Positions 45,734 through 60,975 of a DNA stretch of 64,000 nt are shown piece after piece. Within the stretch, counting starts at the first letter, position 1; the number at the start of each line of letters is the position of its first letter. The position numbers and the translations under genes were made by a program. Under the pieces are notes generated by a model that saw nothing but the letters and a program-made list of their open reading frames with translations, did not search any database and was not told the origin of the DNA. Source of the stretch: Symploca sp. SIO1C2 (GTDB taxonomy: Bacteria > Cyanobacteriota > Cyanobacteriia > Cyanobacteriales > Coleofasciculaceae); contig JAAHFP010000009.1 of NCBI GenBank assembly GCA_010672925.1, positions 55,615 to 119,614 of the forward strand, written 5' to 3'.

Positions 45734-46141
45734 TAACAATATAGTCTCTGTTTTTTATCGATTAGCAATTTATTTTGTGATGACAAATAATAGTTGGGCG
45801 ACTACAAAATAGTCAAATCATTAGATTTGATTGAGTAAAAATCGAAGGTAAGTAGATCAGTTGTTATATATTTAATTTGTGAATTATTTTTAACACAGGA
45901 ACCTAATATTGGTACAAACCAATTTAAATGGGTTTTAGCTTAGAACGTTGTCAAAAACCTATTTTTTTTTCACCGCTTAATATACTGACTAACACATAAT
46001 GCTATCTCTGTCAATAGCCAGTAAGTAGATTGTTAACGTTGCCGGGGAAGACTGAGATAAGACGATTCCTACCGAATATTGGATAATTGAGGACACATCA
46101 GAATTATCTATGCTACAAATTTCTTATTCCCGGTGATAATA
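45734..46141. other. Divergent promoter region of the biosynthetic operon
   Basis: This AT-rich region separates the divergent PKS and kinase-phosphatase genes. It must contain both promoters. I find no tandem repeats of the kind that fill other gaps here, and no small gene. Confidence 0.6.
45787..45816 (-). promoter_or_regulatory. Candidate sigma-70 promoter for the PKS operon
   Basis: On the minus strand, TTGACT (45811-45816) and TATTAT (45787-45792) are spaced by 18 bases and lie about 54 bases before the PKS start codon. The match to consensus is good for this AT-rich context, but this is a sequence match only. Confidence 0.4.
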
Positions 46142-49100
46142 ATGCTTAATTTATCTCACTATCAAGAAACTGACCAACTCTATGCTGGAAGCCGCACCCT
46201 AGTTTATCGAGCCACTAGCTCGACGACAGAGGAACCCGTAATCATCAAAGTTCTAAGAAATCCTCACCCCAACTTCGATGAGTTAGTTCAGTTCCGCAAC
46301 CAATACGTCATTACCTGTAATCTGGAACATCCTACCATTGTTCGCCCCCTCGCTCTCGAACGCTACGGAAATGGTTATGCCCTGGTGATGCCCGATGGAG
46401 GGGCGGTCTCTTTGTGGGAATATTGGCAGCAGTCAGAGCAATCCCTCGCTGAATTTCTCTCCATTGCCATTCAACTGGCTGAATCTCTTCACTATCTCAC
46501 TCAACAACGCATCATCCACAAAGATATCAAACCGGCGAACATTCTAATTCACCCGGAAACCGGTAAAGTCCAAATCATTGACTTCAGCATCTCCAGCTTA
46601 CTCCCCAAAGAACAGCAACAACTAATTAACCCCAATGTTTTGGAAGGAACTCTTGCCTACATTTCCCCGGAACAAACCGGACGGATGAACCGAGGCATCG
46701 ACTACCGCACAGATTTCTATTCTTTGGGTGTTACCTTCTTTGAACTTCTTAATGGCAAGTTACCTTTTGAAACTAACGATCCCATGGAGTTGGTGCATTG
46801 CCATATTGCCCAAGAGGTCAAGTTTCCTACAAGCATTAAGCAGGAAACAGTGCCGGAGATGGTGCAGGCAATTGTATTGAAGTTGATGGCCAAGAATGCT
46901 GAAGACCGGTATCAGAGTAGCTTGGGGCTAAAGTATGATCTAGAGCGATGTCTGCAACAGTTAGAAGAAAATACAGGAGAAATTACCTCCTTTGTGCTGG
47001 GGGAGCGAGATGCTTGCGATCGCTTTTTGATTCAAGAAAAGCTCTATGGAAGGGAAGCGGAAGTACAAAGCTTGCTAGATGCCTTCAACCGGGTAGCTAA
47101 TGGCACAACGGAAATGATGTTGGTGGCAGGGTTTTCCGGGATTGGGAAAACTGCTGTTGTTAATGAAGTGCATAAGCCAATTGTCAAGAAAAGAGGCTAC
47201 TTCATTAAAGGAAAATATGACCAATTCAATCGCAATCTGCCCTTTAGTGCTTTCTTGCAAGCATTTCGAGACTTGATGAGACAATTGCTGGGGGAATCAG
47301 ATGCGGATTTAGCCAACTGGAAAGCGAAAATCACCGCAGCCCTAGGGCCAAATGGAAGCGTGATTATTGATGTGATTCCGGAACTAGAACAGATTATTGG
47401 CAAACAGCCCCCAGTGCCAGAACTATCAGGAAGTGCAGCCCAAAACCGGTTTAACTTGGTTTTTGGCCAATTCATTGCCTCCTTGACAAGTCCAGAACAT
47501 CCCCTGGTGATGTTTTTAGACGATTTGCAATGGGCAGATTTAGCTTCCCTCAATTTGATGGAAGTATTAATGAGTGATAGTAGTATAGATTACTTATTGT
47601 TTCTGGGAGCTTATCGAGACAATGAAGTATTTCCTGCCCATCCCTTGATGCTGAGTTTGGCAGAATTGAGGAAAACTCAAGCTGTAATTTCCACCATAAC
47701 CCTAGAGCCATTGGCTCAAAATCATATCAATCAATTAGTGGCAGACGCTCTCAATTGTAGTCAACAGCTTGCCCAACCCCTAACTGAGTTGGTCTATCAA
47801 AAAACCAAAGGAAATCCCTTCTTTACCACTCAGTTCTTGAAAGGGTTACAGGTGGATGGGCTAATTAAGTTTAATCTAGAGCTGGGCTACTGGGAATGCG
47901 ATTTAGTGCAAGTGCGGGATGCGGCACTCACTGATGATGTTGTAGAATTTATGGCTGGACGCTTGCGGAAATTACCCAGTGCCACCCAGAATGTATTGAA
48001 ATTGGCTGCATGTATTGGCAACCAGTTTCAACTAGAAACCTTGGCAGTGATTTGTGAGGAATCTTCTGAAGGGGTAGCTGCTGATATTTGGAGAGCTTTG
48101 CAAGAAGGTCTAATTCTACCGGTTAGTGAAGCCTATAAGTTTTTTCAAGGGGATGTAGAAGAGGCTACAGATCAAACAGTAACGGTAGGTTATCGTTTCC
48201 TCCATGACCGGGTTCAACAAGCAGCCTACTTCCTGATTCCAGAAGATCAAAAACAGAAAACCCACTTAAAGATTGGTCGATTGCTTCTGGAAAATACATC
48301 ACAAGCAGATTGGGAAGAGCAACTGTTTGATATTGCTAATCACCTCAATCTGGGGGTTAGCTTGATTGTCAATCCCCAAGAGAAAAAACAGCTGTGCGAA
48401 CTGAATTTAGAAGCAGGAATTAAGGCGCAACATGCTACTGCTTTCGCCGCATCCATCGAATATTTATTGTTGGGTATAGAATTGTTGCCGGAAAATAGCT
48501 GGGAGCAGGAGTATGAGGTGACTTTATCCTTGTACCAGTCCGCCACGGAGTCCGCCTATCTTAATGGCAACCTGCAACAGATGGAACAACTAGCCAATGT
48601 GGGGTTAGAAAATTCCCGCAATTTACTCGATACTATTAAAATTTATGAAGTCCAAATCCAGGCATTACAAGCTCAAAGCCGCTTTCATGAAGCCATTGAT
48701 ACCGCAATGGTGATTCTGGGGAAACTAGGCATTCGTCAGTTCCCTGAAGAGCCGGATAGTTCTGATGTTGAGCTGTGGTTGCATGAGGTGAGAGAAAACT
48801 TGGGTGATCGCCATCCTAGTAGCTTAATCGAGCTACCTGCGATGACTGACCCGAAAGCCCTAGCAGCCATCAATATTCTGATCAATGTCCTCCCTTCTAC
48901 TTATAAATCTAAGCCCAATTTGGCAGCATTAGTTTGTTTTGAACAAGTCAATTTATCCCTTCAATATGGGAACTCACCGGTTGCAGCTTATTCCTACTCT
49001 TTACATGGTTTAGCATTATGTGGTGTTTGTAATGATATTGAAGTTGGTGCTCAATTTGGTGAACTGGCACTGCAACTCTTAGAAATGGGTAATACCGCTA

Positions 49101-51469
49101 GTGCAGCCCGAGCTCTGCAAATTATTTATGGTCATACTAAACATGGCAAAGAACACCTCAGAAATACTTTAAAAGGCTTTAAACAAGGTTATTCTGTTGC
49201 TCTTGAAACTGGAGATCTGGAATTTGCCGGTTATACCCTCTCATTTTACTCAGTATATAGCTATTTATGTGGCAAAGAATTATCGGAGCTCTCTAGAGAA
49301 CTTTCTGCCAATAGCAAAGCTTTAGAGCGAATCAAAAGAAAGATTACCAAGAACTGGATTGATATAGTTCTTCAGGCAATTAATAATTTGTTGGGACAAT
49401 CTGAAGATCCTTGTGTCATGGTGGGTGAGGCTTATGATGAAAGGGAAATGGTACCTTTTCACCAGGAAGCTAACGATGTAACGACCTTATCTTATTTTTA
49501 TATTGCTCGCTCAGTGCTTTGCTATTTATTGCAAAACGATAGCCAAGCATCCCAGGATATGGTCAATGCAGAAAAATCCCTAGGAGGAGCAGCGGGAACA
49601 CCATGGGAGAGCGTTTTTTACTTCTATTCATCGTTGGTGATACTAACAGAAATAGCTTCCCGCACCAAAACTGAGTGGCAGGAAGGACTAGAAAAAATTG
49701 CAGCCAATCAGCAAATATTGAGCAATGCGGCGGTTCATGCACCGGAAAATAACTTACACAAATGGCATTTAGTAGAAGCAGAAAAACATCGGGTGTTGGG
49801 TGAGAAAATGGCAGCAATGGAGCTATATGACCAAGCCATTTCCGGAGCCAAAGAACAAAAATATATCCAAGAAGAAGCCCTCGCCAACGAACTAGCAGCT
49901 AAATTTTATCTTGACTGGGGTAAAGATAAAGTTGCCGCTGGTTATATGCAAGAAGCTTACTATTGTTATGCCCAATGGGGAGCCAAAGTGAAAACGGAAC
50001 AACTAGAAGAGCAATATCCCCAACTCCTGAGACCGATTCTCCAGCAACCCGAACCGCTTCTGACTCCTAGCAACCTTCAATCCGATACTAAAACTTTAGG
50101 CAAAGTCACCGGTGTAACTTCCGCCCTTGATCTAACTTCCGCAATCAAAGCTTCCCAAGCCCTCTCTGAGGAAATAGCCCTTGATACCTTGCTCTCGAAA
50201 TTGATGGGCATTGTCCTCGAAAATGCTGGGGCTGATGCCGGAAGCTTAATTTTAGACAACTCCGGCACTTGGGAAATTGTCGCCCAGTGCATCAGCAGCA
50301 GCTGTTCCCTATCCACCATTTCCCTGGAGCAAACTGACAATCTACCCAGTAGCATTATTAATACTGTTAAAAGGACGCAACAAGTCCTGCTGATCAACGA
50401 TGTTGAACAAGATACAACTTTTGCTAGAGACTCCTATCTGATCCAAAAATCACCCCAAAGTCTCTGTTGCACCCCCATCCTCAACCAAGGAAAATTAATT
50501 GGTATCCTTTACCTGGAAAATAATCTTACCGCAGAAGCTTTCACCTCAGATCGTATTGAAGTTCTCAAACTTCTCACTGCCCAAGCTGCCATCTCGATTG
50601 AAAATGCTCGTCTTTATCAAACTCTAGAAGACAAAGTAAAAGAACGTACCGCCCAACTTGCAAGAGCAAACCAGGAAATTAGTGCCCTCAATGAAAAACT
50701 CCAAGAGGAAAATCTCCGTCTGAGTGCGGAGTTAGAAGTAACCAAACAACTGCAACAGATGGTCTTACCCAAACAATCGGAATTAGAGTCAATTGAAGGG
50801 TTAGAAATTGCCGGATTTATGGAACCGGCGGATGAAGTCGGCGGCGACTACTACGATGTGATGCATCAGGATGGTAAAGTCAAAATTAGCATTGGTGATG
50901 TTACTGGACATGGGTTAGAAAGTGGAGTAGTGATGCTTATGGCACAAACTGCTGTCCGCACTTTACAAGAAAGTAAGGAAACTGACCCCATACAATTTTT
51001 AGATATTCTCAACCGTACTATTTATCGTAATGTCCAGCGTATCAATCCCTATAAAAATCTGACCCTTTCTCTACTAGAATATAATGAGGGAAAGTTAACT
51101 GTCAGCGGTCAACACGAGGAAATAATCTTAGTACGTGCTGAAGGTCAAGTAGAGTGTCTTGATACCAGCGAACTTGGCTTTCCTCTGGGTTTAGAGGAAG
51201 AGATTAGAGATTTTATTGATCAAGAACAGGTACAACTCAATCCAGGGGATGTGGTGGTATTGTATACCGATGGCATTACAGAAGCTTTTAATATCAATCA
51301 AGAGCAATACGGATTGGAGAAATTATGTGAGGTCATCAGGGCTAACTCTTCCCTATCTGCAGAGGCAATTAAACAAGCAGTAATTGATGATGTACGACGA
51401 CATATTGGCTCTCAAAAAGTTTTCGATGATATTACTTTGGTGGTGCTAAAGCAGAAGGATAATTCATGA
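46142..51469 (+). CDS. Ser/Thr kinase-AAA ATPase-GAF-PP2C (SpoIIE) signalling protein
   Basis: A 1775-residue protein. The N-terminal kinase domain (1-265) has IIKVL, the HKDIKPAN catalytic loop and DFS, with an activation segment GTLAYISPEQTGR. A large AAA/STAND ATPase follows (~300-700, P-loop GFSGIGKTA, Walker B LVMFLDDLQWAD), then helical repeats (~700-1310), a GAF domain (~1325-1500), a coiled coil (~1500-1545) and a SpoIIE/PP2C phosphatase (~1560-1770, GGDYYDV, GDVTGHG, DGITEA with the metal-binding Asp residues). Related cyanobacterial proteins usually end in a histidine kinase; this one ends in a Ser/Thr phosphatase. The chosen ATG (MLNLSHYQETDQL) is nine bases inside an alternative GTG. 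It is divergent from the PKS operon, so a regulatory link is possible but unproven. Confidence 0.93.
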   Translation: MLNLSHYQETDQLYAGSRTLVYRATSSTTEEPVIIKVLRNPHPNFDELVQFRNQYVITCNLEHPTIVRPLALERYGNGYALVMPDGGAVSLWEYWQQSEQSLAEFLSIAIQLAESLHYLTQQRIIHKDIKPANILIHPETGKVQIIDFSISSLLPKEQQQLINPNVLEGTLAYISPEQTGRMNRGIDYRTDFYSLGVTFFELLNGKLPFETNDPMELVHCHIAQEVKFPTSIKQETVPEMVQAIVLKLMAKNAEDRYQSSLGLKYDLERCLQQLEENTGEITSFVLGERDACDRFLIQEKLYGREAEVQSLLDAFNRVANGTTEMMLVAGFSGIGKTAVVNEVHKPIVKKRGYFIKGKYDQFNRNLPFSAFLQAFRDLMRQLLGESDADLANWKAKITAALGPNGSVIIDVIPELEQIIGKQPPVPELSGSAAQNRFNLVFGQFIASLTSPEHPLVMFLDDLQWADLASLNLMEVLMSDSSIDYLLFLGAYRDNEVFPAHPLMLSLAELRKTQAVISTITLEPLAQNHINQLVADALNCSQQLAQPLTELVYQKTKGNPFFTTQFLKGLQVDGLIKFNLELGYWECDLVQVRDAALTDDVVEFMAGRLRKLPSATQNVLKLAACIGNQFQLETLAVICEESSEGVAADIWRALQEGLILPVSEAYKFFQGDVEEATDQTVTVGYRFLHDRVQQAAYFLIPEDQKQKTHLKIGRLLLENTSQADWEEQLFDIANHLNLGVSLIVNPQEKKQLCELNLEAGIKAQHATAFAASIEYLLLGIELLPENSWEQEYEVTLSLYQSATESAYLNGNLQQMEQLANVGLENSRNLLDTIKIYEVQIQALQAQSRFHEAIDTAMVILGKLGIRQFPEEPDSSDVELWLHEVRENLGDRHPSSLIELPAMTDPKALAAINILINVLPSTYKSKPNLAALVCFEQVNLSLQYGNSPVAAYSYSLHGLALCGVCNDIEVGAQFGELALQLLEMGNTASAARALQIIYGHTKHGKEHLRNTLKGFKQGYSVALETGDLEFAGYTLSFYSVYSYLCGKELSELSRELSANSKALERIKRKITKNWIDIVLQAINNLLGQSEDPCVMVGEAYDEREMVPFHQEANDVTTLSYFYIARSVLCYLLQNDSQASQDMVNAEKSLGGAAGTPWESVFYFYSSLVILTEIASRTKTEWQEGLEKIAANQQILSNAAVHAPENNLHKWHLVEAEKHRVLGEKMAAMELYDQAISGAKEQKYIQEEALANELAAKFYLDWGKDKVAAGYMQEAYYCYAQWGAKVKTEQLEEQYPQLLRPILQQPEPLLTPSNLQSDTKTLGKVTGVTSALDLTSAIKASQALSEEIALDTLLSKLMGIVLENAGADAGSLILDNSGTWEIVAQCISSSCSLSTISLEQTDNLPSSIINTVKRTQQVLLINDVEQDTTFARDSYLIQKSPQSLCCTPILNQGKLIGILYLENNLTAEAFTSDRIEVLKLLTAQAAISIENARLYQTLEDKVKERTAQLARANQEISALNEKLQEENLRLSAELEVTKQLQQMVLPKQSELESIEGLEIAGFMEPADEVGGDYYDVMHQDGKVKISIGDVTGHGLESGVVMLMAQTAVRTLQESKETDPIQFLDILNRTIYRNVQRINPYKNLTLSLLEYNEGKLTVSGQHEEIILVRAEGQVECLDTSELGFPLGLEEEIRDFIDQEQVQLNPGDVVVLYTDGITEAFNINQEQYGLEKLCEVIRANSSLSAEAIKQAVIDDVRRHIGSQKVFDDITLVVLKQKDNS

Positions 51470-53446: not shown

Positions 53447-54763
53447 GTGCCTACCTCAGAGTTTGGTTCCCTTTTAGACCAGTATCGCCGTGAAATAATC
53501 CACCTACAAACTAATCCAACTTATCCTGATAATTACGTTACCTTAGAAGATGTTCTTCGTGTTCTCAACCTGCGCGAGTCTATTCATCAGCATTTAACTC
53601 AAAATTCTAATTATCCTGGCTCTAGCATTTACGAACTCCTCCAGCTTGATAAGCAACTTCAAGCTGCCGCAGATACCATCAATACTATTCTTGAGAGCAA
53701 TAAAACTACTCTAAATCAAGTACGTGACAGCAGCCCTCACCTATCCAATGAATGGTGGTGGCATCTGGAAAAATACACCACTACCACTCTTCATCCTTTG
53801 GATCGCTATGATAATCTATGGAAAAATTCAGCAATCATAATTTGGCTGTTCAACAGCATACTGGTTGTCATCATCATTGTACGTCTATTTAGTGCCGGGG
53901 CTGATATTTTTGGTGCTATTGCTAGTGCTATTTCTGGTTCTCTGGGCTTCCCTAAGAGTAGAAACAGTATTTATGAAAAAATTAAGGGAGTATTTCAAGT
54001 AATTCCTTTTATTAAACGGACTCCTGGTCATTTAGAGGCTGAAGTTCAGTTTATTTTATCTGTCGTCGTATCTATCGCATTGTCAATGACATGGGGATTA
54101 GGCATTCCTTTTATATCGCGCATTTATAACTCTTTCGGTATTCTTGCCTACGAAAGAAAAAACCTCATATCTGCTGAGCAAAATTACCAACGAGCGATTA
54201 ACCTCAACCCCAAGAACAAGTTAGCATATTATAACCTTGGTAATCTCTATGAAGACCTCAAGGAAACTAAAAAAGCTGAGAGTGCTTATCTGGTGGCTGT
54301 TCGCTCTCAAAAATTTCCCAGAGCTTACAACAACCTAGGAAGACTTTACATTCTTAAGAAAGACTATGCTAGTGCTATTGCCTTTCTTAGTCGGGGTGTA
54401 GAGCAAGTTCAATCGCAGGCAGGAGCAGCAACCATTGATGCCAAGGTACAGTATGCTCTCTACAAAAATCTAGGATGGTTAGAATTAGAACAAAATAATG
54501 CAGAGTTTGCCTTGAAGCATATTGAGAAAGCACTCGATATTGTTAACCAAGCTGAAGAAGATGTCAATAGTGGAGCAGCTCATTGCATAATGGCTCAGAT
54601 TGATACTAAGATGGATAAAGAGAGCCAAGCTGGTTATCATTGGGAACAATGTTGTGAGCAAGCTTCACTGGATAAGCCTGAAGAATATAAATGGCTTACT
54701 AAAGCTCGTGAGCACCTTACCAAGGAAAAGAAGAAATGTCCAGCATTTGTAAATGGAGTCTAA
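53447..54763 (+). CDS. TPR membrane protein, first gene of CHAT operon
   Basis: A 438-residue protein with a GTG start (MPTSEFGSLLDQYRRE). Residues ~1-120 are helical and soluble. Two membrane helices lie at ~127-150 and ~205-230. From ~250 to 420 are tetratricopeptide repeats (SAEQNYQRAINLNPKNKLAY, KKAESAYLVAV, YASAIAFLSRG). Orientation is not certain; both ends could be on the same side. It overlaps the next gene by 28 bases and so is translationally coupled. With its partners it is likely to form a TPR scaffold for the CHAT protease encoded third. The family function is unknown. Confidence 0.75.
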   Translation: MPTSEFGSLLDQYRREIIHLQTNPTYPDNYVTLEDVLRVLNLRESIHQHLTQNSNYPGSSIYELLQLDKQLQAAADTINTILESNKTTLNQVRDSSPHLSNEWWWHLEKYTTTTLHPLDRYDNLWKNSAIIIWLFNSILVVIIIVRLFSAGADIFGAIASAISGSLGFPKSRNSIYEKIKGVFQVIPFIKRTPGHLEAEVQFILSVVVSIALSMTWGLGIPFISRIYNSFGILAYERKNLISAEQNYQRAINLNPKNKLAYYNLGNLYEDLKETKKAESAYLVAVRSQKFPRAYNNLGRLYILKKDYASAIAFLSRGVEQVQSQAGAATIDAKVQYALYKNLGWLELEQNNAEFALKHIEKALDIVNQAEEDVNSGAAHCIMAQIDTKMDKESQAGYHWEQCCEQASLDKPEEYKWLTKAREHLTKEKKKCPAFVNGV

Positions 54764-55665
54764 GTCTTGTTTTAACTCTACTCACTGGAACAGAGTTGGC
54801 TCTTGCTACTACATCTTTGACTCCTAGTGAAGAGGAGTTAAATTATTCAGATGCGCCTATATATTTGGCTAGCTGTAGATGGTGGCAAATTTTTACGGAT
54901 GAATGCAATGCTGCTGATCCCAGGAGTGGTATCAAACGCAATACTCCGTACATAATTACTCCCGATAGAACTAAAATACGACAGCAACCTCCCTTGGTAC
55001 GATGGAATGCCGTTGAAGGTATTACCCAATACAAAATACAAGTTAAGGGGCCAGATGTTCAATATACCTCAGATATAGTTACAGATAATGCGTGGCAATA
55101 TCCTGCTGATTTACCCTTGGAGCCAGGAATAACCTATACCATTATGGTCATCCCCCAAGGACAAAGCTGCATGCAGGTGGGTTCAGAATTACCTTGTGAA
55201 GGGAAGTTCACCGTACTTACCAATCAACAATCAGCACAACTAGAAGAGGATTTAGTAGCTTTGCCTCTATTTGAGCGTAGCAATCCCCTTAAGATAGCCA
55301 GTATATATCAAAAATATGAACTCTACGCTGATGCCATCGATGCTTTAGAAAAGGCAATCTCAGCAGGAAGTAACTCAAGAGAATATAACCAATTTTTGGG
55401 AGAGTTGTATGAACAAGTAGGTCTCTATGATCTAGCATTGGATAAATATCAGGAAGCTTTGAGGGTGGCTGAAGAGGAAAAAGATGTGTTAGTACAAGCA
55501 AAATTGTCAGCTGCAATGGGTGAATTAAACTTCACAAGGACTGATTATAAAGAAGCAGCGCGGTGGTTTGAGCAAGCAAAAACTCACTTAGAGCAGCTAG
55601 TTTACGATGAAGAGATTGAGGGATTAGAGCAGCGTATTAACGATGCTTTGGAGAGGGTAGATTGA
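54736..55665 (+). CDS. Secreted TPR protein, second gene of CHAT operon
   Basis: A 309-residue protein with a Sec signal peptide (residues 1-24, cleavage after ALA). A beta-rich domain follows (~45-165) with four Cys residues and PPLVRWNAVEGITQYKIQV, which resembles a fibronectin type III-like strand pattern. The C-terminal half carries TPR helices (YQKYELYADAIDALEKA, YDLALDKYQEALRVA, YKEAARWFEQA). It is therefore expected outside the cytoplasmic membrane. It overlaps the preceding gene by 28 bases and is 35 bases from the CHAT gene. Proteins of this layout recur beside TPR-CHAT genes in cyanobacteria; their role is not established. Confidence 0.75.
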   Translation: MSSICKWSLSLVLTLLTGTELALATTSLTPSEEELNYSDAPIYLASCRWWQIFTDECNAADPRSGIKRNTPYIITPDRTKIRQQPPLVRWNAVEGITQYKIQVKGPDVQYTSDIVTDNAWQYPADLPLEPGITYTIMVIPQGQSCMQVGSELPCEGKFTVLTNQQSAQLEEDLVALPLFERSNPLKIASIYQKYELYADAIDALEKAISAGSNSREYNQFLGELYEQVGLYDLALDKYQEALRVAEEEKDVLVQAKLSAAMGELNFTRTDYKEAARWFEQAKTHLEQLVYDEEIEGLEQRINDALERVD

Positions 55666-55700
55666 TTGACTGTTGATGCTTGGGAAGGGAGGAAGAGCAA

Positions 55701-58700
55701 ATGCGTTGGTGGCGTTTATTATTCAATCTAGATACCCTATTTGCACCAAGGCGGCGTTTATTATTCAATCTAGCAACCTTATTTGCACTAATACTCGGAA
55801 TATACATATTAATATCTTTGATTTTAGCACATCCAAAAAAATATAACGAAGCTGAGCAAGTCCTTAACTCACAACTAGATAAAGCTATGGAGCGATGTGG
55901 TAAGGGTAGCGAGAAGGTTGCGCAAATTTTAAACAAATTATTGCTTTTATATGACTTTCAGGGAAGATATGATGAAGCCAAAATATTGATTACTGAATGG
56001 CTAAAACAAGCAGAAAACAAATTAGGAGATAGCCATCCAACAACTGTTTACTTTATAAATGCCTTAGCTCTTTTGTATGAATCTCAAGAGCAGTACAAAG
56101 AAGCGGAAGAATATTTAAATTTGACACTTCAGAGAGTGAGCGAGAATTACCCTAATAAGATTGAATATTCAGAAAACTTAGCAACCTTATACCTTAAACA
56201 AGGAAAATATCAAAAAGCAGAAAATATTTTTATTTCAGTGATAGAACAAAGTAAGGCAACATTTGGAGACGAACATCCCAAAACCATCCAATCTTTGAAT
56301 AATTTAGCAAATCTATATATTAAACAGGATAAGCGGCAAAAAGCAGAAGACATATTACGTACAGTTCTAGAAAAGACAAATAAATTAGAAGATGAGCTTT
56401 GGGGTTATCAAAATAGCATTAATAGCTATTCTATCTCAAAAGAATTGACTAGCATAGATGATTATGTGTGCGAAAAAAAGATTGTATTTGAGTCATTTGG
56501 CAAAAGCAATAGAGGGCTGGGAGAAAAATATGAAAATCTTGTCGCCTATTTTAATAGTTTTGCGTCTTTATACAAATTACAAGAGAAAAATCAAGAAGCT
56601 GAAAAATTGTACAGAAAAGTGCTGAATATACTGGAAAATACAGTAGGTAAAAAGCACCACCGGATGATTGAGCCTCTGAATAATCTCGCTAGTTTATATC
56701 AGTTCCAGAAGAAATATCAACAAGCTGAAGAGTTACATCTTCAGGCAGAGAAGATAATCAGAAAGGAGTTGGGAGAACATCATCCTCAATTGGCTAACTC
56801 CCTAAATAATCTTGCTTTACTGTACTTAGCACAGAATCAAGAAGCTTTAGCTATTCAAAACTTGCAAGAGGCTCTAGAGATTGAAGAGAAAAATTTGGAA
56901 CGAGATCTAACCAATGTTTCAGGAGAGTATGAGCAAACCACCTATGCCAGAAAACTATGGTCTAGTGGTTACAATACTATCTCTTTCCACTTAAACTTCT
57001 TCCCAGAAAATCAGGATGCTGCTGATTTAGCTTTGGAAACAATTCTGCGGCGTAAAGGCAGAGTACTTGATGCTACTGCCAAAAGATTTGACCTCCTTCG
57101 TTCTTCACTACCCGTTCACCTTAAAGAAAAATTTAATGATTGGCAAAGCAAGCGGACTCAGTTTTCCAATTTACACCATCGTAATGCTTTAGAAGGAGAA
57201 AAATCTGAAAACCATCTTCAAGAAATTGAAGCACTCAAACGCGAAATAAAAGATCTTGAAAATGAATTGGCTCGTCAAAGCTCTCAATTTCGTAAATTTA
57301 ATCGCTTACGAAACTCTTTAGGCGGTGATCAGAAAAAACAGTTTGATAACCTAAACTCAAAAAAATCACAGCTTGCCAATCTCTATAAACGTGGCTTTAT
57401 AGCAACAGGCACTTCTGCCGGTTATCTTCAAGAGGTTCAATCTCTAGAAAATGAAATTACCAGACTGGAAGAGGAACTTGTTAGTCAAAGTGAGCAATTT
57501 CGTCAAGAATCTCAAAGTATCAGCATCGAAAATATTCAACAACTTTTAACCAACGACACAAGTCTGATTGAAATTGTTCGTTACTTTCCTTACGATTTCG
57601 AGAAAGAGCAACAGCTAGAGCCACGCTATGCTGTGTATATTTTAAACCAAAAGGGTAATCCTATTGGAATTGACCTTGGTGTCACCAAAGATATTGATGT
57701 ACTTGTTGAGGAGCATTGGACTAATCTGCGTTCTCGTCAGACATCTCAAGAACAGATTAAGGAATTAGCACGTAAACTGGATGCCAAAATTATGGCTCCG
57801 ATTCGTCAACATCTTGGCAAGAGAGAACATATACTCATTGCTCCAGATAGTATTCTTAACCTGATTCCTTTTGAAACCCTGGTAGATGAGAAAAATGAAT
57901 ATTTGATTGAAGACTACAGGTTTACTTATTTAACGTCAGGTGGAGATTTGCTGCGACTACAGAATACTTTCCCTAGTAAACAAAATCCTCTCGTACTTGG
58001 TGACCCCTATACTAAAAAAAATCCCTCTCTTGTAGCGATAGATCCTAGTCGTACTCGAACTGTTAATGTAAGAGAATATGATTTTATTCCAATTCCTGAA
58101 GCAGCAGAAGAAGCTAGATTCATCGCAGAGAAACTTGATGTCGAGGCTATAATTGGTGACAAGGCAAGTGAAGAAATAGTTAAACAGGTAAATAGCCCAG
58201 AAATTCTGCACATTGCCAGTCATGGTTGGTTTACTGATGCTCCCCAAGAGACGTTAGATCAGTCGGAGCCTTTTCAAAATCCCATGTTTTCGTCTGCCTT
58301 AGTATTGGCAGGAGCACAACTAGAAGACAAAGAGAGCCAGGAAGATGGTTTCTTAACAGCTTATGAAATTGCCAGTCTTGACTTGAGTGGTACCAAACTT
58401 GTAGTCCTTTCTGCTTGTGATACTGGTATTGGTGGATTGAGTGCAGGCGATGGAATTTACGGGTTACGGCGTGCCTTGGTTTTAGCTAGCGCCGAGAGTC
58501 AGGTGATTAGTCTATGGCGAGTGAGCGATAAAGGCACAAAAAAATTGATGGAAAAATACTATACTCATCTTCTCGATCATAAGGAGGGACGGAGTGAATC
58601 TTTGAGAAAAGCACAACTAGAAATGCTTAACAATGAAGATACTAGTCATCCATACTACTGGGGTGCATTTATAAATTCTGGCAATTGGAAGCCTCTAGAC

Positions 58701-58709
58701 ATTGATTAG
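55701..58709 (+). CDS. Membrane-anchored TPR-CHAT caspase-like protease
   Basis: A 1002-residue protein. A basic N-terminus and one membrane helix (~25-43) make it a probable signal-anchored protein with most of its mass outside the cytoplasm. TPR repeats cover ~50-400 (DEAKILITEWLKQ, KYQKAENIF, NNLANLYIKQ, NNLALLYLAQNQ). A charged helical linker with coiled coils follows (~430-620). The C-terminal ~350 residues form a CHAT domain with the caspase-like dyad His841 (LHIASHGWF) and Cys906 (VLSACDTG). I choose ATG at 55701, eight bases after GGAGG, over a TTG at 55680. An in-frame 42-base tandem duplication (55711 and 55753) precedes the membrane helix. The natural substrate is unknown. Confidence 0.9.
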   Translation: MRWWRLLFNLDTLFAPRRRLLFNLATLFALILGIYILISLILAHPKKYNEAEQVLNSQLDKAMERCGKGSEKVAQILNKLLLLYDFQGRYDEAKILITEWLKQAENKLGDSHPTTVYFINALALLYESQEQYKEAEEYLNLTLQRVSENYPNKIEYSENLATLYLKQGKYQKAENIFISVIEQSKATFGDEHPKTIQSLNNLANLYIKQDKRQKAEDILRTVLEKTNKLEDELWGYQNSINSYSISKELTSIDDYVCEKKIVFESFGKSNRGLGEKYENLVAYFNSFASLYKLQEKNQEAEKLYRKVLNILENTVGKKHHRMIEPLNNLASLYQFQKKYQQAEELHLQAEKIIRKELGEHHPQLANSLNNLALLYLAQNQEALAIQNLQEALEIEEKNLERDLTNVSGEYEQTTYARKLWSSGYNTISFHLNFFPENQDAADLALETILRRKGRVLDATAKRFDLLRSSLPVHLKEKFNDWQSKRTQFSNLHHRNALEGEKSENHLQEIEALKREIKDLENELARQSSQFRKFNRLRNSLGGDQKKQFDNLNSKKSQLANLYKRGFIATGTSAGYLQEVQSLENEITRLEEELVSQSEQFRQESQSISIENIQQLLTNDTSLIEIVRYFPYDFEKEQQLEPRYAVYILNQKGNPIGIDLGVTKDIDVLVEEHWTNLRSRQTSQEQIKELARKLDAKIMAPIRQHLGKREHILIAPDSILNLIPFETLVDEKNEYLIEDYRFTYLTSGGDLLRLQNTFPSKQNPLVLGDPYTKKNPSLVAIDPSRTRTVNVREYDFIPIPEAAEEARFIAEKLDVEAIIGDKASEEIVKQVNSPEILHIASHGWFTDAPQETLDQSEPFQNPMFSSALVLAGAQLEDKESQEDGFLTAYEIASLDLSGTKLVVLSACDTGIGGLSAGDGIYGLRRALVLASAESQVISLWRVSDKGTKKLMEKYYTHLLDHKEGRSESLRKAQLEMLNNEDTSHPYYWGAFINSGNWKPLDID

Positions 58710-58722
58710 TACTAATGAACTG

Positions 58723-59251
58723 TAATTAGGGCTTGCTGAATAAGTGGGTCAGCCATGCGGTGACAGTGATTTCCAGCATTTATTTTCGGAAAAAGTGCAA
58801 GGTTTTTATATCAAGAGGCTCAAAAACCTTGTACTCTCGTAGGAGAACACCTGGTTAAATTAATAATTTTAGGGGTTTTATTCACCGGTAGTAAAAACAG
58901 TCAAACTTGCCTAAAATCCTTATGCAGCAAGTGATAATGAACTCTTAACTTATTACTTATTACTTATTACTCACCGTTCGCTTATTTTGTCTAGTGGTTA
59001 GCAAAAATTGCCATACGCTATATATAGTGTATTTCACCGATTTCCAAAACAAATCCAGATTAAGCGATCGCATATAATTGCATATACACATTTTAGATGA
59101 TTTGTCAAGCAACTTGACCGTAACCTGGAATCCCCATTCCGTCGTAGAGAATTTCTCTAACTCGTTTTAAAATGAGCGAACGGTGAGTTATTACTTATTA
59201 CTTATTACTTCAAAACCTGAGTCAATCGACTTATTCAGCAGACCCTAATTA
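58723..59251. mobile_element. 529-bp inverted-repeat element, no transposase
   Basis: Outer 23-bp inverted repeats (58723-58745 and 59229-59251) share the core TGCTGAATAAGT and differ at two positions. This resembles ends of transposase-encoding cyanobacterial insertion sequences, so the element is probably a deletion derivative or MITE. A second inverted pair, ACTCACCGTTCGCT and complement, bounds an inner 220-bp unit at 58969-59188. Confidence 0.65.
58969..59188. repeat. Inner 220-bp inverted-repeat unit
   Basis: Terminal inverted repeats of 20 bp with one mismatch (ACTCACCGTTCGCTTATTTT and its complement). The flanks on both sides carry TTATTACTTATTACTTATTA, either a long target duplication or a pre-existing heptamer array into which the unit inserted. 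Confidence 0.65.
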
Positions 59252-59331
59252 GGGCTTGCTTCTTTTTGGACTGAAGTCCTACTACTGCTTATTACTTCAA
59301 AACCCGAATCAATCGACTTATACCGCAAGCC

Positions 59332-60975
59332 CTAATTATCGTCATTTCCGAAACCTTCAGAGAAACCCCGGAAAATATCAAATATGTTAAATAAGGAGTC
59401 TAGGGGACTTAAGACTTGGCCTACTGTATCTGTAAAAGAAGTTAGACCAGAGCGATTGATCACAACGATATCATCGGGGCGCAGGGGAGGATTGGTTTCC
59501 TCATTGACCCCTGATTCAAAATCTACTGAGATTTTCCGCGTTTGCACTGTACCATTGCGGTTGAGGCGAATTAATTCTACAGAACTTCGGTTGGCACGAA
59601 CCTTATCAAATCCCCCAGCAGCTAAAATGGCGTCATTCAATGGGGCATTGGGTCTAACTTCTACCACCCCAGGATTGTCTACTTCCCCAACTACATTCAC
59701 TTGAATAACATCAGGAGCTAGACTCGAACTAGCTAATTCAGTTAGTTCATCGGCAAAAGGCTCTTGGGCTGTGGGTATCATCACCAAGTCTCCTTCCTGC
59801 AACAGAATATTTTGAGAGAAGTCCCCTCCCTTCAATAACTGCCACAAATCAACATTAATCACTTGTTGGAAACCACTTTTAGTGAGACGTTGTACCTGGA
59901 TATTGCGCAAATCCGCTAATTGGGTAATACCCCCAGCAGCTTGGAGGGCTTGAGCTACTCTTGGTGGATCCCCCGGTCCTCCACCTTCAGCGACAGCATT
60001 AGTGGTTCCTGAAACGATATAGGGTCCTGGGCGTTCTACTTCTCCCACCACCGCAATTTTAACTGGTCTGGTTTCTTCTGGAGAAAAGCTGGCAGTGGCT
60101 AGCAAGGTGTCTTCTACTGTGTCTAAAGTAGTAGTAGTAGGGATAAAAATTTCGTCTCCATCCCTCAAACTAATATCTTGACTGAGATTACCATTTTGGA
60201 ACAAGTCCCAAAGGTTGACATTACAAGGCTCAGCATTACGACGTCGGATGCGCACCTCTCGGACGGCTGCGGCACGGGTAATACCCCCAGCTAAGTTAAT
60301 TGCTTCGGTTACCTTAGGAAAATTGTTCTCCTCGGTTAGGGGTACAGTGTAAGAGCCAGGACGATTGATTTCCCCAGCTAGGGCAATAGTCATGGGACGG
60401 GCTATCACCAGTGATAGAGTAACTAGAGGTCGTTTGATATAGCGAGCATAGCGGCGGGTAATTTCTGCATTAGCCGCTGGAACGGTTAATCCTTGAACAG
60501 AAATATTACCAATTACTGGTAAGTTGATGCTACCGTCTACCAATACTTGAAATTCACCACTGTATTCCGGGACATCAAAAACATTGACACTAACTTGATC
60601 CCCTGCTCCCAGGAGATAAGCCTCTTCTAGAGGTACTGTATTGATGCCAGTGGAGTTGACAGATGCACAAGCAGGCAATTGTCTCAGTGGTACAGTATTA
60701 ATTCCCGTTGCAGATGCAGGGTCAGGAAGTGGTAATACTGAGGGTGAGAAGATATCGACCCCATCAGGAGAGTTAGATTCAGGAATGGATAATTGTATCG
60801 GTGGCTCTGTATTAACTTCCGCAGCAGGGGCTGGGATAAAAGTAGGTAATTGCGCTCTTACGGTTGTAGGTATAACAGTAATAATACTTAGTAAAATTAA
60901 ACGAGTAAGCGGTTGAGTTAAGTGTTTCTTAGAATTGTCTTGATTAAATACTGTATAATAGAATTTATTATTCAT
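59332..60975 (-). CDS. Wza-like polysaccharide export protein (Poly_export and SLBB)
   Basis: A 547-residue protein with a signal peptide (cleavage after VRA, residue ~42). A Pro-rich spacer contains two TGINTVPL copies. A Poly_export domain follows (~115-200, LLGAGDQVSVNVFDVPEYSG and DGSINLPVIG), then three SLBB-type domains (about 200-300, 305-420, 430-520; IALAGEINRPGSY, IAVVGEVERPGPY and VNVVGEVDNPGVV). It is expected to form an outer-membrane/periplasmic channel for exopolysaccharide. No Wzc, Wzx or Wzy gene is adjacent. ATG at 60975 is preferred: GGAG lies 13 bases upstream, and the longer frame begins within that leader. Confidence 0.9.
   Translation of the reverse strand: MNNKFYYTVFNQDNSKKHLTQPLTRLILLSIITVIPTTVRAQLPTFIPAPAAEVNTEPPIQLSIPESNSPDGVDIFSPSVLPLPDPASATGINTVPLRQLPACASVNSTGINTVPLEEAYLLGAGDQVSVNVFDVPEYSGEFQVLVDGSINLPVIGNISVQGLTVPAANAEITRRYARYIKRPLVTLSLVIARPMTIALAGEINRPGSYTVPLTEENNFPKVTEAINLAGGITRAAAVREVRIRRRNAEPCNVNLWDLFQNGNLSQDISLRDGDEIFIPTTTTLDTVEDTLLATASFSPEETRPVKIAVVGEVERPGPYIVSGTTNAVAEGGGPGDPPRVAQALQAAGGITQLADLRNIQVQRLTKSGFQQVINVDLWQLLKGGDFSQNILLQEGDLVMIPTAQEPFADELTELASSSLAPDVIQVNVVGEVDNPGVVEVRPNAPLNDAILAAGGFDKVRANRSSVELIRLNRNGTVQTRKISVDFESGVNEETNPPLRPDDIVVINRSGLTSFTDTVGQVLSPLDSLFNIFDIFRGFSEGFGNDDN

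Follow-up and report, generated by a model that had tools for sequence, protein, structure and literature searches.

A stretch of 64,000 nucleotides from Symploca sp. SIO1C2 (GCA_010672925.1, contig JAAHFP010000009.1, positions 55,615-119,614 of the forward strand), hereafter the window, within which all coordinates are given, carries three consecutive genes on the + strand that are the subject of this report. All three products contain tetratricopeptide repeats (TPRs; Pfam), and the third ends in a caspase-like CHAT domain. The start of gene 2 overlaps the end of gene 1 by 28 bases, whereas gene 3 has two start candidates, a TTG at 55680 (1009 amino acids, aa) and an ATG at 55701 (1002 aa), of which the ATG, with GGGAGG eight bases upstream, is the more likely. 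The genes and their features are as follows.

53447..54763, + strand: gene 1, receptor-like membrane TPR protein, 438 aa, GTG start (open reading frame (ORF), Pfam, AlphaFold2 model)
53447..53761, + strand: N-terminal domain of gene 1, helical and some 105 aa long, predicted to be cytoplasmic; relatives have one to five copies (alignment)
53828..53887, + strand: hydrophobic segment 1 of gene 1, about aa 128-147 (average of 39 family members; AlphaFold2 helix 119-149)
53903..53956, + strand: hydrophobic segment 2 of gene 1, about aa 153-170 (family average; AlphaFold2 helix 154-166)
54053..54109, + strand: hydrophobic segment 3 of gene 1, around aa 203-221, immediately preceding the TPRs (AlphaFold2 helix 194-236)
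54110..54736, + strand: TPR domain of gene 1, predicted extracytoplasmic, with conserved Cys380 and Cys402
54736..55665, + strand: gene 2, exported-looking protein with an immunoglobulin (Ig)/Fn3-like domain and TPRs, 309 aa
54736..54807, + strand: signal-peptide-like N-terminus of gene 2, about 24 aa (by eye and by the family export test)
54943..55218, + strand: Ig/Fn3-like beta sandwich of gene 2, with the motif PYIITP (IPYIISPR in the consensus)
55222..55659, + strand: eight TPR-type helices of gene 2 (Pfam, AlphaFold2 model)
55701..58709, + strand: gene 3, exported or signal-anchored TPR-CHAT protein, 1002 aa from the ATG
55758..55829, + strand: hydrophobic segment near the N-terminus of gene 3, either a signal anchor or a signal peptide (hydrophobicity, sequence)
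55842..56906, + strand: TPR region of gene 3 (Pfam), best solved relatives kinesin light chains
57762..58685, + strand: CHAT domain PF12770 of gene 3, 242.8 bits
58221..58223, + strand: codon of catalytic His841, in HIASHG, numbered from the ATG at 55701
58416..58418, + strand: codon of catalytic Cys906, in SACDTG, numbered from the ATG at 55701

The CHAT domain of gene 3 (aa 695-1002, counted from the TTG) scores far above the family cut-off of 24 bits and is a member of PF12770. Its His-Cys dyad marks the protein as a putative cysteine protease. The N-terminal hydrophobic segment (aa 27-50 from the TTG) reaches a best 14-residue Kyte-Doolittle mean of 2.91 and is preceded by RWWR and PRRR. 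An earlier note, made from the sequence of this stretch, had described three overlapping or closely spaced reading frames with TPR and CHAT domains, encoding a membrane TPR protein, a signal-peptide TPR protein with a beta domain, and a TPR-CHAT protein with an intact His841/Cys906 dyad. The reading frames and Pfam matches agree with this description, and the residue numbering is exact when counted from the ATG at 55701. The description of gene 1 as a membrane TPR protein is borne out by its hydrophobic segments, of which there are two in the protein alone and three in the family average, and by its Pfam TPRs; the description of gene 2 agrees with an N-terminus that looks signal-like by eye and with the sandwich seen in the AlphaFold2 model.

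Relatives of gene 2 were sought in 97 genomes (the host's own and those of its relatives). Of the 74 listed matches extending over the sandwich domain, 72 were taken, matches to the TPRs alone being left out; counts from this search refer to relatives among the matches listed. A scan with a gene 2 alignment over one genome for each of 84,980 species added 54 loci, three of them from Chloroflexota (L151, L153 and L184). With the window, these make 127 loci, from which 13 whose gene 2 was identical over its whole length or its last 200 residues were removed, leaving 114; one removed locus (L082) has a CHAT gene, and its retained twin (L081) has none.

The three genes recur together. Of the 72 loci (37 genomes) for which a CHAT density was available, 48 have a CHAT gene no more than 1.6 kb from gene 2, against 2.8 expected from that density, which is based on first-look candidate counts. 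Across the 114 loci, gene 1 is found on the same strand as gene 2 at 107 and adjoins it, with a gap of at most 60 or an overlap of at most 130 bases, at 82. The complete ordered, same-strand set of gene 1, gene 2 and CHAT gene is present at 46 loci, or at 38 when the distance between genes 1 and 2 is limited to 200 bases, and at 18 further loci a CHAT gene of opposite orientation is found no more than 1.6 kb from gene 2. Among the 94 loci with at least 3 kb of sequence downstream of gene 2, 73 have a CHAT domain, 33 a two-partner secretion (TPS) domain, and 79 either or both; at the remaining 15, a giant protein comes next in three, and in others nothing was recognised. The giant proteins, at L106, L108 and L179, are exported-looking, exceed 3,000 aa and take the place of CHAT or TPS after a kinase-headed gene 1 and gene 2. 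The host genome itself holds five of the recurring sets, the window's included, with gene 1 lying 0.7 and 3.9 kb away in two of them. The genes thus do co-occur elsewhere, and the three very probably form a functional module.

The window's set is, as judged from sequence comparison, one version of a modular family and no fixed trio; the three-gene system of the earlier note is supported in its linkage and corrected in this respect. Both ends of the set vary. At the near end, gene 1 occurs with different N-terminal heads: among the 114 loci, 49 have the window type, 29 a Ser/Thr kinase and 29 a CHAT-like head, and no gene 1 was recognised at 7. The window type is defined by the lack of a detected kinase or CHAT head, and 42 of its 49 members reach the start of the family profile, the others being fragments or doubtful. 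The kinase, CHAT and TPR domains were verified by Pfam in representative gene 1 relatives, and a DUF1822 gene is present at 25 of the 29 CHAT-headed loci. At the far end, the partner may be a TPR-CHAT protein, a TPS-CHAT fusion (15 of 114 loci) or a TPS exoprotein. TPS domains occur at 35 of the 114 loci, separate CHAT and TPS genes at 12, and ShlB at 10; of the 46 ordered sets, 19 combine a window-type gene 1 with a CHAT protein that is not fused to TPS. The fusions, found at L078, L079, L105, L111, L129 and others, are FhaB-like exoproteins, mostly of about 1,400-2,500 aa, with the CHAT domain at the end, and the one that was checked in Pfam (L105) was verified. At L091, an Ig-like stretch resembling gene 2 is itself fused to a TPR-CHAT protein.

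The His-Cys dyad is intact in 76 of the 77 CHAT domains counted at gene 2 loci, the exception (L087) being cut by a contig end, and in all 45 other CHAT domains of the host genome; the count leaves out one CHAT with too short a domain, and the tree leaves out one further row. In a quick tree of 121 CHAT domains, that of the window falls in a clade of 12 (Shimodaira-Hasegawa-like approximate likelihood ratio test, SH-aLRT, 100), 11 of which come from gene 2 loci and the twelfth from the host genome, with no gene 2 adjoining. Over the whole tree, in which the rows not linked to gene 2 are from the host genome only, the CHAT domains of gene 2 loci are scattered, with 15 label changes, and it seems, therefore, that the pair of genes 1 and 2 has been coupled to several CHAT subfamilies.

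Gene 1 resembles a receptor, with a swappable head that would be cytoplasmic and TPRs predicted to lie outside. When 39 members of the window-type family are averaged, three hydrophobic segments appear and segment 2 is clear; the window's own gene 1 has two segments above threshold, with segment 2 below it, and its AlphaFold2 model has a mean predicted local distance difference test score (pLDDT) of 80.5, lower in the membrane part. A protein with two membrane crossings, its head and TPRs on the same side, was considered, as two segments pass in 25 of the 49 window-type proteins including that of the window, and was rejected, the family average having three and seven proteins passing at three. 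One segment exceeds the threshold in 20 of 29 kinase-headed and 17 of 29 CHAT-headed relatives, nearly always immediately before the TPRs, and two never do. Because a kinase head should be cytoplasmic, a single crossing would place the TPRs outside. The mean numbers of lysine and arginine residues in the window-type family average, 0.03 in loop 1-2 against 4.6 in loop 2-3, point to the same arrangement, but the support is weak, as the stretch after segment 3 also has 2.4. Cys380 is kept in 101 of 102 gene 1 TPR domains and Cys402 in 79 of 102 (44 of 45 window-type, 28 of 28 kinase-headed and 7 of 29 CHAT-headed), and a disulphide between the two, in keeping with an oxidising compartment, is possible. 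Among the 50 matches listed in a fold search, gene 1 resembled generic TPR proteins or TPR-containing assemblies and one designed membrane protein. Some relatives carry two to five tandem copies of the N-terminal domain (L285, 5900-8686; L286, 5925-8216; L287, 7279-9282; L080, 10446-12266). Others, of about 450-560 aa, stand without gene 2 or CHAT (L292, L295, L296, L297, L298, L300 and L301), which suggests that these standalone forms have a role of their own.

The AlphaFold2 model of gene 2 (mean pLDDT 80.7, with aa 13-66 unreliable) consists of a sandwich of eight short strands followed by eight TPR helices, and the solved structure that it matches best is the C-terminal domain of MtxA (4z29; E 1.2e-6, template modelling score 0.69 on the target, 12% identity). 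Two cysteine columns preceding the sandwich are conserved in 56 of 63 and 66 of 69 filled rows; the window's protein has the second (Cys57) and lacks the first, and its Cys47 aligns with a cysteine column in another alignment. The match of the window's gene 2 to DUF928 (PF06051) is confined to the TPR part, at 14.0 bits against a cut-off of 26, so that this protein is not counted as a member; 9 of 72 relatives match this family at E up to 0.05. In 85 of the 114 relatives, the family profile is matched from within its first 40 positions, revealing an extra N-terminal domain. By eye this domain resembles FecR, an identity that we do not claim because no FecR match was found among the families listed (25 of 48 in one search). 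Short, exported-looking proteins consisting of the extra domain alone, with at least two cysteines, lie near gene 1 at four loci without a full gene 2 (L289, 9138-9452; L290, 7638-8030; L291, 8397-8804; L303, 9885-10196).

The side of the membrane on which these proteins act was addressed with a home-made export test, which looks for a hydrophobic stretch without acidic residues after positive charge and allows alternative starts; its rules were tightened after a first version, and proteins truncated at the start by contig ends were left out. By this test, 42 of 51 CHAT proteins that have no TPS fusion and are encoded no more than 1.6 kb from gene 2 are export-like, as are 90 of 114 gene 2 proteins. 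Among the controls, the call was made for 0 of 28 DUF1822 proteins, 0 of 29 kinase-headed, 1 of 29 CHAT-headed and 7 of 47 window-type gene 1 proteins. Given the N-terminal segment of gene 3, the export-like character of its counterparts and the fusion of CHAT to a TPS secretion domain in relatives, the CHAT domain of gene 3 is likely to be extracytoplasmic, as the earlier note had predicted, although these predictions do not distinguish periplasm, cell surface and thylakoid lumen. Less of that note's view of such a location as a departure for CHAT proteins can be retained. Outside the gene 2 sets, 30 of the 43 strongest-scoring C-terminal CHAT proteins of the host genome also look exported, and 4 of the 13 others carry a TPS domain; export thus seems common for the CHAT family in this genome, and a membrane CHAT protein, HetF, was already known (PMC8406250). 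In a study of a Nostoc water extract a CHAT peptide is listed, which is uninformative on location (PMC9895726).

Several observations weigh against a dedicated, outward-facing module. With respect to export, 107 of 506 other ORFs longer than 250 aa are also called export-like, and the test is insensitive, calling only 4 of 10 ShlB, 9 of 20 TPS and 7 of 15 TPS-CHAT proteins; its first, looser version called 43 of 59 CHAT and 89 of 114 gene 2 proteins together with 5 of 28 DUF1822 proteins and 135 of 609 other ORFs. The Ig-CHAT fusion of L091 receives no export call, and the main text of an Anabaena exoproteome paper contains no mention of CHAT, TPR, tetratricopeptide, hemagglutin or DUF928 (PMC4390845), and so offers no support for export. 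The topology of gene 1 is also uneven: 9 of 29 kinase-headed and 12 of 29 CHAT-headed relatives lack any segment above the threshold, and of the 49 window-type proteins, fragments included, 6 have no segment, 11 have one, 25 have two and 7 have three. Net charge barely separates the gene 1 loops (+0.33 for loop 2-3 and +0.69 after segment 3), and because positive residues are found after segment 3 as well, charge is a weak guide to topology. In the window's own set, gene 2 lacks the extra N-terminal domain of most relatives (the profile match starts at position 84), and neither TPS nor ShlB was found among ORFs starting at 44-63 kb. Finally, the linkage has exceptions. Neither CHAT nor TPS is present in 28 of the 114 loci as fetched, of which 13 have less than 2 kb after gene 2 and 15 are not so explained, and gene 1 is also found without a full gene 2 or CHAT. 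Nineteen further loci with gene 1 or its head domain, chosen for having no listed full gene 2, contain neither a full gene 2 nor a CHAT match; as they were selected for that trait they provide no rate, and the contig of one (L294) ends just after gene 1. Judging from these loci, gene 1 works, or once worked, without genes 2 and 3.

With these points taken into account, the explanation we favour is an envelope device composed of a receptor, an adaptor and an extracytoplasmic CHAT protease, to which, taken as a whole, we give about an even chance; the full mechanism is less likely than either the existence of the module or the location of its CHAT domain. Gene 1 would hold its helical head in the cytoplasm, cross the membrane with three helices and expose its TPR domain outside, where gene 2 would act as an exported adaptor built from an Ig/Fn3-like sandwich and TPRs. 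Gene 3 would be a membrane-anchored or secreted TPR-CHAT cysteine protease with its active site outside the cytoplasm. An envelope cue sensed by the TPR and Ig parts of genes 1 and 2 might switch on the CHAT domain through gene 3's own TPRs, much as TPR changes activate the CHAT domain of Csx29, and gene 3, once active, would cleave one or a few proteins of the envelope or cell surface. Among relatives, the FhaB-like (TPS) exoproteins encoded beside or fused to CHAT would be the likely candidates for substrate or carrier. Comparison supports the genes, their recurring linkage, the dyad, the domain order and the predicted export, and from these we infer the complex, the allostery, the substrate and the cue. 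On a broader scale, it is possible, though we advance this tentatively, that filamentous cyanobacteria and some Chloroflexota use outward-facing caspase-like signalling, in which a receptor with swappable heads and an Ig-TPR adaptor have been repeatedly coupled to exported CHAT proteins and TPS surface proteins.

The roles of CHAT proteins that we have met in the literature lie in CRISPR complexes, conflict systems and cell division. If the proposed device exists, CHAT-family proteolysis would be controlled outside the cytoplasm, possibly in cell-cell contact or in filament or biofilm behaviour. Should the topology be right, many of the dozens of CHAT proteins of a filamentous cyanobacterium would act in the envelope or at the surface with a dedicated receptor and adaptor, CHAT would have a testable role in surface biology, distinct from cell death or defence, and the reason such bacteria hold so many caspase-like proteins would become experimentally approachable.

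The same genes could also signal inward, an alternative that we consider rather unlikely. Here the exported CHAT protein would cut the outer part of gene 1, in the manner of regulated receptor proteolysis, so that the output would be the cytoplasmic head, and the nearby surface proteins would be regulated targets instead of substrates. The exchange of kinase, CHAT-like and other heads while the TPR part and gene 2 stay constant recalls receptors with interchangeable outputs, and the DUF1822 gene that accompanies most CHAT-headed loci fits such a scheme; gene 1 nevertheless exists without a neighbouring CHAT gene, and the TPS-CHAT fusions point outward and not to gene 1. An unlikely role in conflict or self-killing can be envisaged as well, in which envelope damage or phage attack would activate the exported CHAT protein to destroy envelope proteins of the cell itself or of a neighbour. 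Other conflict systems of bacteria are described as having CHAT among their effector domains (PMC10907252), and the many divergent copies in the host (83 CHAT matches in an assembly of 8.67 Mb) resemble a conflict repertoire. No immunity gene was recognised among the Pfam-scanned neighbours, however, and no model in PADLOC-DB 2.0.0 matches gene 1 or gene 3, gene 2 matching only a generic TPR model (E 0.0028).

It is improbable that the N-terminal segment of gene 3 is inserted in the opposite orientation and that the trio is an ordinary cytoplasmic TPR-CHAT system. Csx29, the characterised precedent, is cytoplasmic and acts within a CRISPR complex. Within gene 3, HPKKY follows the segment and puts two positive charges on its far side, and 13 of the 43 other C-terminal CHAT proteins of the host genome receive no export call. 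The RWWR and PRRR sequences before the segment nonetheless favour an N-terminus inside and a C-terminus outside, and both the export calls for CHAT proteins neighbouring gene 2 and the TPS-CHAT fusions argue for the outside as well. That three unrelated TPR genes stand side by side by chance, in a genome where TPR genes, like CHAT genes, are very numerous, is rejected on the linkage counts and the conserved gene order.

The surroundings of the set were scanned with Pfam in the form of six proteins between 46133 and 61008, the trio included. Upstream lie a protein of 1778 aa (46133-51469) combining a Ser/Thr kinase, an AAA ATPase, a GAF domain and a SpoIIE phosphatase, and, on the opposite strand, a PMT-like glycosyltransferase; a polysaccharide export protein with SLBB is encoded downstream, also on the opposite strand. 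Just downstream of gene 3, an inverted repeat of 23 nt (58723-59251, 91% complementary, arms 483 nt apart) is followed at 59283-59338 by a second, 86% similar copy of one of its end regions, and together these look like the remnant of a small mobile element. Promoter and terminator scans found sites no more numerous than in shuffled sequence, and a tRNA scan of 44-64 kb found none.

CHAT proteases, TPR-controlled CHAT activity and a membrane protein with CHAT, transmembrane and TPR parts (HetF, PMC8406250) are already known. For a cassette of gene 1, gene 2 and an exported CHAT protein, with swapped heads, TPS partners and TPS-CHAT fusions, no description was found in the open-access PubMed Central papers searched. 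The window's set may be compared with two-partner secretion (FhaB/TPS with FhaC/ShlB), in that relatives have TPS exoproteins beside or fused to CHAT, but it differs in having no TPS or ShlB gene in the scanned stretch. The resemblance of gene 2 to the C-terminal domain of MtxA extends to the order of an Ig-like domain followed by TPRs. The authors of that structure propose a periplasmic signalling role for MtxA, for which the available part of the report names no CHAT partner, unlike gene 2 (PMC4439547). In a study of phage resistance in Nostoc, the changes in one strain include a CHAT gene and those in another a filamentous hemagglutinin gene, among many others (PMC10811720).

HetF of Anabaena, which functions in cell division and heterocysts and is found in filamentous cyanobacteria, consists of a CHAT part, one predicted transmembrane segment and TPRs (PMC8406250). 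CHAT-headed relatives of gene 1 share this layout, and the two that were scanned match the HetF model NF045509 through their CHAT part at 22-28 bits against a cut-off of 1200. The window's gene 1, unlike HetF, has no CHAT domain, none of the three window proteins matches NF045509 at E up to 0.1, and no gene 2-type partner is named in the available part of the HetF paper (PMC8406250). A parallel to gene 3 is found in type III-E CRISPR, where Csx29 of Craspase likewise carries a caspase-like CHAT domain, His-Cys dyad included, behind its TPRs, and where binding of target RNA shifts a TPR segment, ordering the catalytic residues so that one partner protein is cut (PMC10028731). By sequence, entries of the Csx29 type are the only solved CHAT proteins matched by the CHAT part of gene 3, at about 12 bits over about 70 residues (E 0.59-0.69). 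Csx29 is an RNA-guided partner of Cas7-11, whereas gene 3 has an N-terminal membrane segment, and no Cas7-11/gRAMP was found beside it among the six scanned proteins, that being the part of the window scanned for CRISPR. By analogy, Csx29 thus offers a precedent, and not proof, for the control of CHAT activity by TPRs.

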